Source: Oceanicaulis sp. (GTDB lineage: Bacteria > Pseudomonadota > Alphaproteobacteria > Caulobacterales > Maricaulaceae). Taken from it: a DNA stretch of 56,839 nt. This document shows, in pieces, positions 20,829-28,194 of the stretch. Position 1 is the stretch's first letter; each line of letters begins with the position of its first letter. Both the position numbers and the translations under genes were made by a program. The notes below the pieces were generated by a model, which did no database searches, had not been told where the DNA came from, and saw only the letters and a list, made by a program, of their open reading frames with translations. The stretch is taken from the NCBI GenBank assembly GCA_020832735.1, contig JAFIEB010000079.1, forward strand, positions 1 through 56,839, in the 5' to 3' direction.

Positions 20829-23477
20829 ATGAACGTCGTCGTCGTTGAATCACCCGCCAAAGCCAAGACCATCAACAAGTATCTGGGCTCTGGCTACATT
20901 GTGCTGGCCAGCTTCGGCCATGTGCGGGACCTGCCCGCCAAGGACGGTTCAGTGCGTCCGGACGAGGATTTCGCGATGGACTGGGAGGTCGATCCCAAGT
21001 CCCAGACGCGCATCAAGGCCATCGCCGACGCCCTGAAAGACGCCGACACCCTGATCCTGGCCACTGACCCGGACCGGGAAGGCGAAGCGATCTCCTGGCA
21101 CTTGCTCGAAGCGCTGACCAAGCGCCGGGCGCTCAAGGACAAGCGCATCCAGCGCGTCGCCTTCAACGCCATCACCAAAAAGGCCGTCAGCGAGGCGCTC
21201 GAACGCCCGCGCGACGTCGATATGGAGCTGGTGCAGGCCTATCTGGCCCGGCGCGCGCTCGATTATCTGGTGGGATTCACCCTCTCCCCGGTGCTCTGGC
21301 GCAAGCTGCCCGGCTCCCGCTCGGCCGGCCGGGTCCAGTCAGTGGCCCTTCGGCTGATCACCGAGCGCGAGAGCGAGATCGAACGTTTCAGGGCGCAGGA
21401 ATACTGGTCTGTGGACGCCGATGTGCGCGCCGACGGCGCTGACAGCGCCTTCAAAGCCCGCCTGTCACGCTTTGAAAACGAGAAGATCACGCGGCTGACC
21501 ATTGGCGACGAGACGCGTGCGCGGGCTGCAGAGGCAGCCATCCGCACCGCCCGGCTCACCGTCTCGGCGGTGGAAGCCAAGCCCGCCCGCCGCAATCCGC
21601 CCCCGCCCTTCACCACCTCGACCCTGCAGCAGGAGGCTGCTCGCAAGCTCGGCTACGACGCACAGCGCACCATGCGCGCCGCCCAGCGCCTCTATGAGGG
21701 CGTGGAGATTGGCGGCGAGACCGTCGGCCTGATCACTTATATGCGGACCGACGGGGTCACGATGGATTCCGGCGCCGTGGCCGAAGCGCGCGCCGTGATC
21801 CGCAATCAGCACGGCCCCGATTTCGTGCCCGAGAAGCCGCGCGCCTACAGCTCCAAAGCGCGCAACGCCCAGGAAGCGCACGAAGCGATCCGGCCAACCA
21901 GCTTCTCTCGCAGCCCGGATACGCTCAGCCTGGATTCCGATCAGGCCCGGCTCTACGCCCTGATCTGGAAGCGCGCCGTGGCCAGCCAGATGGAAAGCGC
22001 GCGCCTTGAGCGCACCACCATCGACATCGAAAACGAAGACGGCTCGCTCGCACTGAGAGCCACGGGCTCTGTCGTAGTGTTCCCCGGCTTCTTCGCGCTC
22101 TACCAGGAAGGGCGCGATGATGAGGAAGACGAGGGCGAAACCCGCCTGCCCGCCGTGCGTCAGGGCGCAGGCGCGCGCGCCGAGCAGACCTACACCGAAC
22201 AGCACTTCACCCAGCCGCCGCCGCGCAATAGCGAAGCCTCGCTGGTGAAGAAGATGGAGGAGCTGGGCATCGGCCGGCCCTCCACCTACGCCTCCATACT
22301 GACCGTGCTGCGTGATCGCGATTACGTGCGCATGGAGGACAAGCGCTTCGTGCCCGAGGACAAGGGCCGGGTGGTGATCGCTTTCCTGGAAAACTTCTTC
22401 AAGCGCTATGTGGAATATGATTTCACGGCCGGCCTGGAGGATCAGCTGGACAAGGTCTCGGCTGGCGAGCTGGACTGGAAAGAGCTGCTGCGCGCCTTCT
22501 GGCGCGACTTCTCCGCCAATATGGAAGGCATCGCCGACCTGCGCATTGGCGACGTCATCGACGCGATGAATATCGCGCTCGAACCGCTGATCTATCCGCC
22601 GCGCGAGGACGGGTCCGATCCGCGCATCTGCCCGTCTTGCAATGTCGGCACGCTGTCGCTGCGGCTGGGCAAGCACGGCGCCTTTGTGGGCTGCTCGAAC
22701 TATCCCGATTGCCGCTACACACGGCCGCTGGGCGCCAGCGAGGCGCCAGCGGGCGCCAATGGCGACGGCGCGCTGGGCGAGCACCCGGATACCGGCGCGA
22801 CCATCTATCTCAAGGACGGCCGTTTCGGCCCGTATCTGGAAATGACCATCGAGGGCGAGGAGAAGCCCCGGCGCGGCTCCCTGCCCAAGGGGTGGAGCCC
22901 ATCCAGCCTGACGCTGGAGCAGGCCGTCAAGCTGATCGACCTGCCGCGCCTGGTCGGCCTGCACCCGGAGGACGGCGAACCTATCGAGGCAGGGATCGGG
23001 CGATATGGCCCGTTCGTGCGCCATGGCGCCACCTACGCTAATCTGCCCAATGCCGAGGACGTGTTCGAGGTGGGCGTCAACCGCGCGGTCGATCTGATCG
23101 CTCAGAAGAAGGCCGGGCGCGGCCAGCGCGGCGGGGCCGCAGCTGCGCCGCTCAAGGAGCTGGGCGAGCATCCGTCCGAGGGCGGGCCGGTGAACGTGAT
23201 GAGCGGGCGCTACGGCCCTTACGTCAAGCATGGCAAGGTCAACGCCACCCTGCCCAAAGGCATGGACCCGCAGGCGATCACGCTGGAGCAGGCTGTGACG
23301 CTGATCGCAGAGAAAGCCGCCAAAGGCGGCAAGGCGCCGGCGCGCAAGTCCGCAGCCAGGAAATCGCCGGCGAAGAAGTCAGCTGCAAAGAAGCCTGCTG
23401 CTAAAAAGGCTTCTGCCGGGAAAACGCCTGCGAAAAAGAGCGCGCCCCGGAAAACCGCCAAGAAGGATGCGTCTTGA
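20829..23477 (+). CDS. topA: DNA topoisomerase I
   Basis: Type IA topoisomerase that relaxes negative supercoils. The 882-residue protein starts with NVVVVESPAKAKTINKYLG (TOPRIM) and has TDPDREGEAISWHL with the acidic metal triad. The catalytic tyrosine is Tyr304 in GLITYMRTDG. A four-cysteine zinc finger (CPSCNVG and CSNYPDC, about 600-630) and several C-terminal repeat domains with RYGPYVKHG follow. The last 45 residues are a Lys/Ala/Pro-rich tail with repeated KKSA, AAKK and APARK units, likely a DNA-binding tail. Its stop overlaps the TTG start of rnr. Confidence 0.96.
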   Translation: MNVVVVESPAKAKTINKYLGSGYIVLASFGHVRDLPAKDGSVRPDEDFAMDWEVDPKSQTRIKAIADALKDADTLILATDPDREGEAISWHLLEALTKRRALKDKRIQRVAFNAITKKAVSEALERPRDVDMELVQAYLARRALDYLVGFTLSPVLWRKLPGSRSAGRVQSVALRLITERESEIERFRAQEYWSVDADVRADGADSAFKARLSRFENEKITRLTIGDETRARAAEAAIRTARLTVSAVEAKPARRNPPPPFTTSTLQQEAARKLGYDAQRTMRAAQRLYEGVEIGGETVGLITYMRTDGVTMDSGAVAEARAVIRNQHGPDFVPEKPRAYSSKARNAQEAHEAIRPTSFSRSPDTLSLDSDQARLYALIWKRAVASQMESARLERTTIDIENEDGSLALRATGSVVVFPGFFALYQEGRDDEEDEGETRLPAVRQGAGARAEQTYTEQHFTQPPPRNSEASLVKKMEELGIGRPSTYASILTVLRDRDYVRMEDKRFVPEDKGRVVIAFLENFFKRYVEYDFTAGLEDQLDKVSAGELDWKELLRAFWRDFSANMEGIADLRIGDVIDAMNIALEPLIYPPREDGSDPRICPSCNVGTLSLRLGKHGAFVGCSNYPDCRYTRPLGASEAPAGANGDGALGEHPDTGATIYLKDGRFGPYLEMTIEGEEKPRRGSLPKGWSPSSLTLEQAVKLIDLPRLVGLHPEDGEPIEAGIGRYGPFVRHGATYANLPNAEDVFEVGVNRAVDLIAQKKAGRGQRGGAAAAPLKELGEHPSEGGPVNVMSGRYGPYVKHGKVNATLPKGMDPQAITLEQAVTLIAEKAAKGGKAPARKSAARKSPAKKSAAKKPAAKKASAGKTPAKKSAPRKTAKKDAS

Positions 23478-25738
23478 GCCGCGACCCCTATGAAGATCAC
23501 GGGTTCACCCGCAAAGGGCTGATTGAAGCGGTCCGGCTGGGCGAAGGCCGGTTCACCAAGCGCGAGCTGGCCCGGGCGCTGGGACTGAGCGGGGATCAAA
23601 AACGCGTCCTGAAGGACGCCCTGCGCGCGCTTGAAACCGAGGGCGCGATCCGAAAGACCGGCGCCAAGGCCTATGACATCGCCGGCGGGCTTCCCGCCGT
23701 CAGCGTTCTGGAGGTTTATGACCGCGATGTGGACGGGGAGTTCCTGTGCCGGCCTGTGAAGGCGGAGCTGCAGGGGCCGGTGATCCGCCTCGCCCCGGAG
23801 CGCAAATCCGGCCGGTCGCGCCCCGCAGGCGTCGGAGACAGGGTTCTCGCCCGGCTGACGCCGGACGAGGAGGGCGGCTATGACGCCGAGGTCATGCGGG
23901 TGCTGGGCCAGGTCTCAGAGCGCATATTGTGCGTCCTGCGCCAGTCCGGACCGGGCGAGGCGCGCCTGGTCCCGGTGAACCGGCGAGCACGCCATGAACT
24001 GATCCCTGCGCGCGGCGAGACGCGCAAGGCTGCAGACGGCGATCTGGTCAGCGTGCGCATCGCTTCAGAGCGCCGCCACGGGCTGAAGACCGCCGTGATC
24101 GAGGAAGTGATCGGCCGCGCCGACAGCCCGCGCGCCGGCTCGGTCATCGCCATGGCCGAGCACGACGTGCCCGACGGATTCGCCGATGCCGAGCTCAAGG
24201 AGGTCAAGGCTGTCCGCCCGGTGACCATGGGCCGGCGCACCGATCTGCGCGACATTCCGCTGATCACCATCGATCCCCATGATGCGCGCGACCATGATGA
24301 TGCGGTCTGGGCCGCGCCTGACGAGGACCCGGCCAATTCCGGCGGCTGGATCGTGATCGTGGCCATCGCCGACGTGGCCGCCTATGTCCGCCCCGGATCG
24401 GCGCTGGACAAGGGCGCGCGCAAGCGCGGCGTGTCGGTCTATCTGCCCGACCGGGTGGTGCCGATGCTGCCCGAGCGCCTGTCCAACGACCTGTGCTCGC
24501 TCAAGGAGGGCGAGGAGCGCCCCTGCCTGGCGGTGCGCATGGTGTTTGACCGCGACGGCGCCAAGCGATCCCACGCCTTTATGCGCGGCTGGATGCGCTC
24601 GGCCGCCGGACTGTCCTATGAGGACGCCCAGGCGGCCATTGACGGCAAGGGCAAAGGCAAGGCCGAAACCCTGCTTGAGGGGGTCCTCAAACCGCTCTGG
24701 GGCGCATATGGCGCGCTCAGGCGCGCCCGCGCCCGGCGCGAACCGCTGGAGATCGACGCGCCCGAGCGCAAGATCCAGATCGGCGAGGACGGATCGGTCC
24801 AGGGCGTGAATCTGCGCGAACGCTTCGACGCCCACAAGCTGATCGAGGAGATGATGATCCAGGCCAATGTGGCTGCGGCCGAGGCCCTGGAGGAAAAGCG
24901 CACGCCCCAGATCTACCGCATCCATGACGAGCCCGGCGCGCAGAAGCTGGAAAGCCTGGCCGACTTCCTGCCGCATGTGGGCCTGAAATGGACGCGCGGC
25001 GACCGGGTCACGCCTGCGCGCTTCAATGTCGTGCTCAAGGCCGCCGAAGGCTCCGAGCACTACGAGACCGTCAACGAGGTGGTGCTGCGCAGCCAGTCCC
25101 AGGCGGTCTACGACATAAACAACATCGGCCATTTCGGCCTCAATCTGGCACGCTATTCCCATTTCACCTCGCCGATCCGCCGGTATGCCGACCTGACCAT
25201 CCACCGCGCCCTGATCCGGGCCTACGGGCTGGGCGACGACGGTCAGAGCGATGAGGAGCGCAGCCAGCTCGAGGCCATCGCCGAGGAGACCAGCACCAAT
25301 GAGCGCCGCGCCATGGCCGCCGAGCGCGATGCGGTGGACCGGTTCATCGCCGGCTGGCTGTCAGCGCGCACCGGCGGCGAGTTTGACGGGCGCATCACCG
25401 CCGTGACACGCTTCGGGCTGTTCGTCAGGCTGGATGAAACAGGCGCGGACGGACTGTGCCCGATCTCCCAGCTAGGCGATGAGTATTTCGTCCATGACGA
25501 AGCCGCTCACGCCCTTGTGGGCCAGCGCACCGGCGGGCGCTTCCGGCTCGGCCTGCGCGTCAAGGTGCGTCTGGTTGAAGCAACGCCCGTGACGGGCGGG
25601 CTGATATTCGACATGCTGACCGCTCCCGAACCTGGACGCCCCGATCAGGGCCGTACGCAGGCGCGCTCGGGCCGCAAGGGCTTCGAGCGGCGCGCGGGCG
25701 GCGCTCAGAAGAAGCCCCATGGCCGACGCAAACGCTAG
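23474..25738 (+). CDS. rnr: Ribonuclease R
   Basis: RNase R is a 3'-5' hydrolytic exoribonuclease that degrades structured RNA. The 754-residue chain has an N-terminal helix-turn-helix-like part (FTKRELARALGLSGDQKRVL), cold-shock domains, the RNB domain with the metal-binding aspartates in TIDPHDARDHDDAV near residue 276, and HFTSPIRRYADLTIHR. The C-terminal S1 domain (about 635-715) has GRITAVTRFGLFVRLDETGA, and a basic tail follows. It starts with TTG at 23474 inside the topA stop (TTGA), preceded by AAGAAGGA, so translation is coupled to topA. Confidence 0.95.
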   Translation: MSRDPYEDHGFTRKGLIEAVRLGEGRFTKRELARALGLSGDQKRVLKDALRALETEGAIRKTGAKAYDIAGGLPAVSVLEVYDRDVDGEFLCRPVKAELQGPVIRLAPERKSGRSRPAGVGDRVLARLTPDEEGGYDAEVMRVLGQVSERILCVLRQSGPGEARLVPVNRRARHELIPARGETRKAADGDLVSVRIASERRHGLKTAVIEEVIGRADSPRAGSVIAMAEHDVPDGFADAELKEVKAVRPVTMGRRTDLRDIPLITIDPHDARDHDDAVWAAPDEDPANSGGWIVIVAIADVAAYVRPGSALDKGARKRGVSVYLPDRVVPMLPERLSNDLCSLKEGEERPCLAVRMVFDRDGAKRSHAFMRGWMRSAAGLSYEDAQAAIDGKGKGKAETLLEGVLKPLWGAYGALRRARARREPLEIDAPERKIQIGEDGSVQGVNLRERFDAHKLIEEMMIQANVAAAEALEEKRTPQIYRIHDEPGAQKLESLADFLPHVGLKWTRGDRVTPARFNVVLKAAEGSEHYETVNEVVLRSQSQAVYDINNIGHFGLNLARYSHFTSPIRRYADLTIHRALIRAYGLGDDGQSDEERSQLEAIAEETSTNERRAMAAERDAVDRFIAGWLSARTGGEFDGRITAVTRFGLFVRLDETGADGLCPISQLGDEYFVHDEAAHALVGQRTGGRFRLGLRVKVRLVEATPVTGGLIFDMLTAPEPGRPDQGRTQARSGRKGFERRAGGAQKKPHGRRKR

Positions 25739-26423
25739 ACCCCGCCCCGCCCCTTCCAACGCCCCTGCATCGGCGCAGCGCCCCCGCCTGGCCGCCTCGC
25801 TAATCCTCACGCGCGCGCGCCGGGACGGCTCGGTGGAGATCCTGTTCGGGCGCCGCTCGGGCGGGCATGTCTTCATGCCGCAGAAATACGTCTTCCCCGG
25901 TGGCCGGGTGGACCGTAGCGACGGCTACGCCCCGCTGGCGCGAGAGCCGCGCGAGGACGTGCGCGCCGTGCTGACCCGGGTTCTGAGCGAGCGGCGCGCC
26001 CGCGCTGCGGCGGCCGCAGCCCTGCGCGAGACGGCCGAGGAGACCGGCCTGCTGCTCGGCCAGGCTGGCCGGATCGAGCGCCCACGCCCGGAATGGAGAC
26101 CGTTCGCGGAGGCCGGGGTCAGGCCCGATGCGGGCGCCCTTGGCCTGGTGGCTCGCGCAATCACCCCGCCGGGCCGCACGCGCCGGTTTGACGCCTGGTT
26201 CTTCCACGCTGACGCCGCGCAGGTTCATGGCGATGCGCGCCTGTGCAGCAATGGCGAGCTGGAAGATCTGCGCTGGGTGGCCCTGGACGAGGCGCGCCGG
26301 CTCGACATCCCGATCATCACGCGCTTCGTCCTGTCAGAACTGGAGGCGCATCTGACCGGCGCAGGCGCGCCGGTGCGCTGTGCGCGCGTCACGCCCAAGG
26401 GCCCTAGGGTGGATACGATATGA
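25719..26423 (+). CDS. Nudix hydrolase
   Basis: The 234-residue protein has the Nudix core: a strand SLILTRARRDGSVEILFGRR, the FPGG motif in YVFPGGRVDRSDG, and the catalytic helix ALRETAEETGLLLG (R-E-x-x-E-E-x-G). An insert of about 40 residues separates FPGG from this helix, as in the NUDT8/NUDT19-like group that often acts on CoA derivatives. Later parts include RRFDAWFFHADAAQ and DLRWVALDEARR. Substrate is uncertain. It overlaps rnr by 20 bp and its stop overlaps the next gene (ATGA). Confidence 0.85.
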   Translation: MADANARPRPAPSNAPASAQRPRLAASLILTRARRDGSVEILFGRRSGGHVFMPQKYVFPGGRVDRSDGYAPLAREPREDVRAVLTRVLSERRARAAAAAALRETAEETGLLLGQAGRIERPRPEWRPFAEAGVRPDAGALGLVARAITPPGRTRRFDAWFFHADAAQVHGDARLCSNGELEDLRWVALDEARRLDIPIITRFVLSELEAHLTGAGAPVRCARVTPKGPRVDTI

Positions 26424-27016
26424 CAGCGCGTCCTGCCGATTTCGCCTGCCTGTTGCTGGCCGACGCTCCGACCGGACGACTGGCGCTGGGGCGAGACATC
26501 ACAGGGCTGACGCTGCCGCTCACCCGGCCTCAGACCGGAGACGGGATTGGCCGCGCGCCTGAACTGCCGCACGGCTGGCTGGCCGCGCCGCCGGCGCGCA
26601 CCGCCGTCTTCCAGGACGCCGCCCTTCGCGCCCTGTTTGAAACGCTGGGCCAGCTTATCGCCCGGCCGGCGGCCGGGGACGCGGAGCTGGCGCGCACAGG
26701 CGCCTGGGGCCGGATCGCACGCCATGGCCTGGCGCCGGACCGCGCAGCGCTGCGCTTCCTGGGCCGCGCCATTGATCCGTCCGGCGCACCGCAGCGGCGC
26801 CACGTGCGCGTGTTCGCCGCCCCGATCAGCGCGGTATCCAACTCGCTCAAACGCCGCGGGCGGTGCGAGCGGCTGGTCTGGCTGGACCCCGCAGCCGCCG
26901 GCAGCCTTGATGATCCAACGCTCGAACCTTTTCTGGCCCACGCCCTGACCAGTCCTGACGCCGCGCCGATCCGGGTGACATTTCGCACAGGACAACGGCG
27001 CATCCAGCCGCTATAG
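26420..27016 (+). CDS. Degenerate Nudix-like protein coupled to the Nudix hydrolase
   Basis: I do not recognise this 198-residue protein as a named family. Read beside its upstream neighbour it looks like a divergent paralogue. Landmarks occur in the same order: ALRALFETLGQLIARP against ALRETAEETGLLLGQ, then LAPDRAALRFLGRAIDP against VRPDAGALGLVARAITP, then RRHVRVFAAPISAV against RRFDAWFFHADAAQ, and RLVWLDP against DLRWVAL. The RExxEExG helix has lost most of its glutamates, so catalysis is unlikely. Its ATG overlaps the Nudix stop, which fits a pair made together, perhaps as a heterodimer. That role is inference. Confidence 0.65.
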   Translation: MTARPADFACLLLADAPTGRLALGRDITGLTLPLTRPQTGDGIGRAPELPHGWLAAPPARTAVFQDAALRALFETLGQLIARPAAGDAELARTGAWGRIARHGLAPDRAALRFLGRAIDPSGAPQRRHVRVFAAPISAVSNSLKRRGRCERLVWLDPAAAGSLDDPTLEPFLAHALTSPDAAPIRVTFRTGQRRIQPL

Positions 27017-27027
27017 GCGCCCTTGCC

Positions 27028-28194
27028 ATGGCGCTGAACTTTCTGACCAACCCGGCCTATGCCCGCACGCGCTCGCTGAGCGCGGCGATCCTGTGCGCGG
27101 CCATGGCCGGGTGCGGGTTCGGCCTGCTGATGCCGCTGGTGGCGCTCAATCTGGAAGCCATGACCGGGTCAGGCGCCGTGGTCGGGCTCAATGCCGCCGC
27201 CGCGGCGATATCCACAATCGTGGCCACGCCCCTGATCCCGCCTCTGCTGGCGCGCACGCCGCCGCGCCTGACCATCGCGGCCTGCGCAGCGTTCACAGGG
27301 GTTGGCATTATCGCTTTCACGTTCCTGCCCGACGTCATGGTGTGGTTCGTGCTGCGTTTCATCATCGGGCTGGCGGTGACGGTGATTTTCGTGGCCCGCG
27401 AGACCTGGATCAACCAGCTGGCCAAACCGGAAAGCCGGGCCAGCCTTTTGGCCGTGTACGCCACGGTTCTGTCCGGCGGTTTCGGTTCCGGGGGCGTATT
27501 GCTGGCCGTGCTCGGCGCCCAGGGCTTTGCGCCCTGGATCGCCGGCGGCGCCATTTTCCTGCTGGGCGCCGTTCCCATTCTCCTGCTGCGCGGACCGGAG
27601 CTGGCAGCGCCTGACCGGGCCGACGCCGGTCCTCTGGCGCTGTGGAGCGCCGCGCGTCTGGCGCCGGTGGCGATTCTCGCCGGCCTGGTGTTCGGCGCGC
27701 TGGAGACCGGCATATTCGCCCTGGTGCCTGTCTACGCGGAGCGGCTGGGCTTTACCGAAACCGTCGTGGGACTGCTTGTCGCCGTGGGCGCGCTGGGCGC
27801 CATCGCCATGCAGATACCGATCGGGCGCTTCGCCGACCGGGCCGGCCGGCTGACCACGCTGCGCCTTATCGCGGCGGCGGCGTTCGTGCTGGCGATCCTG
27901 ATCGCGCTCTCGGGCGCGCGCCTGTGGGCGCTGTTCCCGATGATGTTCCTGTATGTCGGGGTCGCCAGCGCCTTCTACACGATCGGACTGGCCCTGATCG
28001 GCGAGCGGGTGCGGCCAGGTCAGCTCGCCAGCGCCAACGCCGCATTCATCTTCGCCTACGGCATCGGATCGCTGGCCGGACCGGTCAGCGCGGGCGCGGC
28101 GATGGACGCCTTCAATCCCTGGGGGCTGCTCATGGCCTTCGCCTTGTTCGCCGCCTTGTATCTCGTTGTGGCCTGGCGGGCGAAAGACCGCTGA
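27028..28194 (+). CDS. MFS transporter
   Basis: A 388-residue major facilitator with about 12 helices in two six-helix halves. The second half shows ETGIFALVPVYAERLGFTET and QIPIGRFADRAGRLTTLR, the loop motif G-x-x-x-D-R-x-G-R after TM8. The first half ends with VFVARETWINQL. This layout resembles the YcaD/MFS_1 group of bacterial proteins. The substrate cannot be told. It begins 11 bp after the degenerate Nudix gene and probably closes the operon that starts at topA. Confidence 0.87.
   Translation: MALNFLTNPAYARTRSLSAAILCAAMAGCGFGLLMPLVALNLEAMTGSGAVVGLNAAAAAISTIVATPLIPPLLARTPPRLTIAACAAFTGVGIIAFTFLPDVMVWFVLRFIIGLAVTVIFVARETWINQLAKPESRASLLAVYATVLSGGFGSGGVLLAVLGAQGFAPWIAGGAIFLLGAVPILLLRGPELAAPDRADAGPLALWSAARLAPVAILAGLVFGALETGIFALVPVYAERLGFTETVVGLLVAVGALGAIAMQIPIGRFADRAGRLTTLRLIAAAAFVLAILIALSGARLWALFPMMFLYVGVASAFYTIGLALIGERVRPGQLASANAAFIFAYGIGSLAGPVSAGAAMDAFNPWGLLMAFALFAALYLVVAWRAKDR

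Follow-up and report, generated by a model that had tools for sequence, protein, structure and literature searches.

The GG turn and the glutamates of Nudix hydrolases matter for hydrolysis, and in the NrtR regulators the Nudix domain serves regulation or binding and not hydrolysis. NrtR regulators are described as Nudix-related (PMC6800001), and NUDT19 and NUDT7 are given as CoA diphosphatases (PMC7829553). Non-catalytic Nudix domains are typically part of multidomain proteins, DBC1 (PF14443) being one such non-catalytic domain, and the same source lists the solved chain 3QSJ as having an undetermined function (PMC5389931). The window considered here, the whole 56,839-nucleotide stretch of Oceanicaulis DNA that was analysed, carries two adjacent genes of this kind, a Nudix hydrolase gene (A) and a second gene (B) whose product is related to A and is without the Nudix signature. 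The nearest solved chain to the A profile is 3QSJ from Alicyclobacillus acidocaldarius (E 1.5e-21), which has FPGG, RETAEE, and TPPxxPxRFDxRFF blocks like those of A, and a weak match of the A profile to NUDT7 was also obtained (E 0.024). The Nudix box of NUDT19 contains a long insert, as in A. B differs from the Nudix hydrolases of PF00293 in the absence of the Nudix signature, and would resemble DBC1 and NrtR if, as we infer, its Nudix domain serves binding or regulation rather than hydrolysis; unlike the DBC1-type domain, it makes up a protein of its own, of 198 aa, whose gene is coupled to that of a relative with the signature.

The order at the locus is topA-rnr-A-B-MFS, with all genes on the forward strand and each neighbour either overlapping the next or separated from it by 11 nt (Table 1); the names of the three flanking genes were assigned by eye and are presumed. 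A homologue of rnr lies 5' of A in relatives as well, and a homologue of the MFS gene lies beyond A or B. An earlier note on this DNA had placed the pair in an operon with topA and rnr, had B starting inside the stop codon of A (ATGA), and set a helix RALFETLG in B against the pattern RExxEExG; the pair does lie behind topA and rnr, both open reading frames are present, and the helix reads RALFETLG in B, as it wrote, and RETAEETG in A. The 4-nt overlap of A and B recurs in all 20 loci that bear B, as ATGA in 18 and as GTGA in 2. By itself, the overlap does not imply the equal amounts of A and B that were also proposed.

Table 1. Positions of the Nudix gene pair, its sequence motifs, and the flanking genes in the window.
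Feature	Position	Strand	Remarks
topA (context)	20829-23477	+	named by eye
rnr (context)	23474-25738	+	named by eye; start codon uncertain; 20-nt overlap with A
A, Nudix hydrolase, first gene of the pair	25719-26423	+	234 aa; complete Nudix signature with long insert
FPGG turn of A, aa 59-62	25893-25904	+	from alignment
Nudix helix RETAEETG of A, aa 103-110	26025-26048	+	from alignment
ATGA, start codon of B within stop codon of A	26420-26423	+	overlap in 20/20 B-bearing loci
B, Nudix homologue without catalytic signature, in the slot of A2 elsewhere	26420-27016	+	198 aa
Degenerate Nudix helix RALFETLG of B, aa 70-77	26627-26650	+	from alignment
R-x-H-x-R-x-F of B, aa 126-132	26795-26815	+	fixed in 20/20 B
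MFS-type transporter (context)	27028-28194	+	named by eye; separated from B by 11 nt

The assignment of A as a Nudix hydrolase from its signature holds, with a match to Pfam PF00293 at E 4.9e-12 and the signature present in all 57 A proteins. B alone has no Pfam or NCBIfam family match up to E 10, and a weak NUDIX match appeared in 5 of 15 B proteins that were scanned singly (best E 0.015). A and B share 33% identity over 114 aa in BLASTP (E 2e-7) and can be aligned over most of their length. The description of B as a Nudix look-alike was upheld by profile-profile comparison, in which hhalign aligned 15 B with 30 A proteins over 182 columns (probability 98.8%, E 7.8e-17); the corresponding E-value was 2.4e-17 for B against A2, as we name the second of the two Nudix genes in the A-A2 pairs of Alphaproteobacteria. 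These alignments indicate that B is a true Nudix homologue despite the lost signature. Among solved structures, B gave three matches only, to other kinds of proteins (E 0.31-0.44), and the B profile had no match among solved chains at E-values up to 10. AlphaFold2 models of B, which drew on 2 of the 20 B proteins in all, had a pLDDT of 35.5 with a two-row alignment (B of the window and of L031) and of 42.0 with a four-row alignment (the same and two A); such low values speak neither for nor against the Nudix fold, by which the earlier note had proposed to judge B. Viral contigs searched with an A alignment and with a B alignment yielded zero relatives, and a scan of genome contigs yielded one, an Oceanicaulis assembly (Maricaulaceae, Alphaproteobacteria) with 67% identity to B.

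Residue counts from 57 A and 20 B proteins, aligned together, locate what B has lost. G61, G62, R103, E104, E107, E108, and E180 are present in 57/57 A, whereas no B has a glycine at either position of the GG turn, the position of E104 holds alanine in 19 B and serine in 1, and the position of E180 holds glutamate in 0/20; glutamate is found in 16 B at the position of E107 (alanine in the other 4) and in 6 of 20 at that of E108. The Nudix signature (GG turn, RExxEExG) is thus not found in B, with the glutamate of RE in 0/20, and B is as described earlier in being without the catalytic signature: the GG turn, the first helix glutamate, and the late glutamate are absent in every B and present in every A. 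Because the GG turn and two glutamates are gone in all B, Nudix-type hydrolysis by B is unlikely, as judged from these alignments. In addition, H50, F52, M53, and P54 of A stand opposite a gap in 20/20 B, which is seven columns wide in the rows printed. The B of four genomes of genus g14 (L015, L044, L045, and L046) is without even a counterpart of E107.

Other positions are retained or have become fixed in B. R146, R156, W126, and W186 of A are kept in 20/20 B (as R116, R126, W96, and W154), and D15, D66, H102, L104, R108, L114, G115, H128, R130, and R151 are fixed in all 20, at places where those residues are not the rule in A. P106 and D107 are likewise fixed in B and are also common in A (52/57 and 34/57, respectively). 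The place of H128, within R-x-H-x-R-x-F, is occupied by aspartate in 57/57 A and by histidine in 21/24 A2, and arginine at the place of R130 is also found in A of other families.

Intact second genes occur in other Alphaproteobacteria. A search of the class with the B profile (289 genomes) returned, after B itself, the second genes of Nudix pairs of other families (L108-L110, 71 bits), and an A2 query matched, with an E-value of 1e-25 or lower, in 98 of the 289 genomes, a count that includes single A-type genes. The 24 adjacent A-A2 pairs that were examined have 12 family codes, 20 of the pairs being from the class scan and 4 from family f3 of the window's order; both genes of a pair were required to fit the signature pattern, so that dead second genes elsewhere would escape, and the complete signature of A2 in 24/24 pairs was a condition of the search. 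The first gene of the pairs has RAxTPxxRxxR[FY][DN]xRF in 24/24, and the D/N place is filled in the second gene by histidine in 21 and by asparagine in 3; histidine at this place is also seen in the single Nudix genes of L124, L127, L137, and L138. A 4-nt overlap joins the two genes in 18 of the 24 pairs, and, in loci that are short, a homologue of the MFS gene of the window follows A2 in 14 and a homologue of rnr is seen in 7. The four f3 loci (L017, L079, L080, and L081) have a second Nudix gene of intact signature that is GTGA-coupled to A in each, and this A2 is without the W..P block of other A2. A literature search of open-licence papers returned no paper on this Nudix pair. A2 and B are alike in their slot, in the overlap, and in R-x-H-x-R-x-F, and unlike in the signature, which is complete in A2 and lost in B.

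B fills the slot of A2, as the second gene after A, with the 4-nt overlap and before the MFS gene. A tree was built from 38 A, 21 A2, and 11 B sequences, which comprised 21 of the 57 A of the window's order, 11 of the 20 B, 17 of the 20 pairs of other orders (L114, L144, and L149 being left out), and the 4 f3 A2. In it, A formed one side (100/100) and B stood with A2, on a long branch; with the motif block removed, the split of A from A2 plus B was retained at 100/99. An earlier tree, which omitted 9 of the 57 A rows and added 9 others, had joined B with the f3 A2, but under a long-branch warning from the program, and is given no weight here. Against members of other orders, B had an hhalign score of 114.5 for A2 and 90.5 for A, compared with 69.7 for the A of the window's clade, and the best scores of the B profile were 71 bits for A2 and 53.6 bits for A. 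Since B sits in the A2 slot and groups on the A2 side in the tree of 38 A, it is probably the old second enzyme, dead in one lineage, and we consider it rather likely, from these comparisons, that B descends from A2, an old second Nudix gene that is intact elsewhere.

The other origin to be weighed is a tandem duplication of A, at an early stage of the window's order or family, after which the copy died as B and came by its A2-like histidine through convergence. This origin is consistent with the BLASTP match of B to A itself (E 2e-7), with an approximately unbiased (AU) test in which a grouping of B with every A of the window's order was not rejected (p 0.158), with an AU p-value of 0.237 when rows of other orders were absent, with a single A HMM (built from 21 A of the window's order, 11 of these from the window's clade) that outscores the A2 HMM on 20/20 B, and with the histidine that some single Nudix genes also have at the aspartate place. 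A2 as one side without B was likewise not rejected (AU p 0.0991). Against a copy of A stand the rejection of A of the window's clade as the source (AU p 0.0123), the motif-free split of A from A2 plus B, the hhalign preference for A2, and the position of B in the same slot before the MFS gene. Descent from A2 carries a cost of its own, because only 4 of 200 genomes of the window's order, that of the query among them, gave an A2 match that was strong (E of 1.5e-58 or lower), the next match being at 2.8e-23, and an A2 origin of B therefore requires many losses. On these comparisons, descent from A2 is probably the more likely origin, and a copy of the partner A appears unlikely. Two narrower arguments were tried and dropped: a recent tandem copy of A within the window's clade, which was tenable on family data and was abandoned once other orders were added, and the W..P block as a sign of copying from A, shared by B and A and absent in the f3 A2, as four A2 of other orders have such a block.

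A first search had found a near full-length B in 15 of 61 genomes. Within the family, B is present in 20 of 137 genomes (match E 5.8e-51 or better; next match 4.0e-14), and the matches from 4.0e-14 down are A genes where the locus was examined. By genus code, B was found among the listed genomes in 12 of 15 of g1, 5 of 6 of g14, 2 of 2 of g15, and 1 of 1 of g10; G002 and G003 are the g1 genomes without B, and G004 is unscorable for B, as its contig ends inside A. The pair is conserved across these genomes, a check that the earlier note had proposed: B lies directly after A in 20/20, always coupled to it, and was never seen without an adjoining A. The MFS gene follows B in all 20 loci, with a gap of 7-11 nt in 19 and a computed gap of 97 nt in L002, and among 11 listed loci without B it follows A in 10 (gaps 7-354 nt), with none shown in one. 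B ends in CTATAG, CTATAA, or TTATAA just before the MFS start in 19 of the 20 loci (27008-27030 in the window), and TATAG or TATAA stands at the same place in several relatives without B; the CTATAG-type end could be a -10 element, overlapping the stop of B, from which the MFS gene is transcribed without a leader.

In a tree of A, the 20 B-bearing genomes and four without B (G002, G003, G026, and G066) form one clade of 24 (99/96), and if B was gained only once, three losses of it took place within this clade (G002/G003, G026, and G066). Between A and the MFS gene of G026 (L152), the ATGA junction is retained together with an open frame of 14 codons, stop included, that ends in R-L-stop like many B, which is compatible with an internal deletion of B. 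No clear relic of B was found by eye in G002, G003, or G066. The place of B in G002 (L154) holds a spacer of ~350 nt before the MFS gene, with CCCTCTCCCC- and GGGGGAGAGG-like stretches. Another observation concerns the g14 genomes L015, L044, L045, and L046, whose common B branch is very fast (1.89 changes per column), with no such branch in A.

The three lineages that have lost B, the faster evolution of B than of A, and the strong divergence of B in the four g14 genomes would all be expected if B were a decaying, functionless gene on its way out. B is nevertheless under purifying selection. Among the 13 of 30 printed pairs with an A dN below 0.1, B has a dN/dS of 0.13-0.24 and A one of 0.05-0.16, and over all 190 pairs the median pN/pS is 0.66 for B (maximum 0.91) and 0.44 for A. 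The low dN/dS in close pairs, the open frame in 20/20 B, and the many residues fixed in 20/20 across deep branches speak strongly against decay, which we regard as very improbable.

Because the catalytic signature has been lost and selection still keeps the gene, B probably binds a ligand or a partner, and the fixed set of arginine, histidine, and aspartate residues, which includes the partners of the invariant R146 and R156 of A, is the ground on which B is read as a binding protein made with A. B would be described as a Nudix-type pseudoenzyme that shares a transcript with A, a Nudix hydrolase that looks active, and is translationally coupled to it. Its source would be an old alphaproteobacterial module, rnr-A-A2-MFS, of which B would represent the A2, and in one clade of the Maricaulaceae the second gene would have lost the loop, the GG turn, and the metal-holding glutamates, with the arginine set and the histidine being kept or newly fixed. 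The protein would most likely still bind a ligand of the nucleotide-diphosphate type, or A itself, without cutting, and serve A as a sensor or a regulatory subunit. The placement of the conserved residues in the fold, ligand binding by B, and regulation of A are what we infer as most likely from sequence, and the whole account, of an A2-derived, coupled pseudoenzyme that binds a ligand or A and regulates A, is given roughly even chances.

How B would act on A can be put more specifically, in line with the heterodimer that the earlier note suggested, as an obligate or preferred heterodimer in which the dead protomer completes or tunes the active one and coupling matches the amounts of the two; this overlaps with the account just given, for which it is one possible mechanism. 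Dimers are common among Nudix enzymes, and the invariable 4-nt overlap and the occurrence of B only beside A (20/20 each) would fit such a complex. In a comparison of the distance matrices of A and B, for which the MFS and rnr genes supplied the background, however, no co-evolution beyond that background was detected (partial r 0.012, with 880 of 2000 permutations as high). Furthermore, A is retained after the loss of B in the four genomes nested in the clade, and the long B branch of the four g14 genomes is unmatched in A, which leaves the heterodimer plausible at somewhat below even chances. A further and rather doubtful extension is that, after the loss of the metal site, B fixed a polar set (D66, H102, D107, R108, R116, R126, H128, R130, and R151, each in 20/20 B) and became a ligand-gated regulatory subunit or a different enzyme, in complex with A; A-A2 pairs would then be heteromeric Nudix enzymes, and this clade would hold a half-dead form.

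For the family, the preferred reading of B as a coupled, A2-derived pseudoenzyme would add, to the multidomain proteins in which non-catalytic Nudix domains typically occur (PMC5389931), a small Nudix protein that is dead and whose gene is coupled to that of a relative with the signature. A coupled Nudix pair is found in at least 12 alphaproteobacterial families, and with descent from A2 being probable, B and the intact A2 elsewhere would offer a before-and-after comparison of an enzyme pair that became an enzyme and a non-enzyme.
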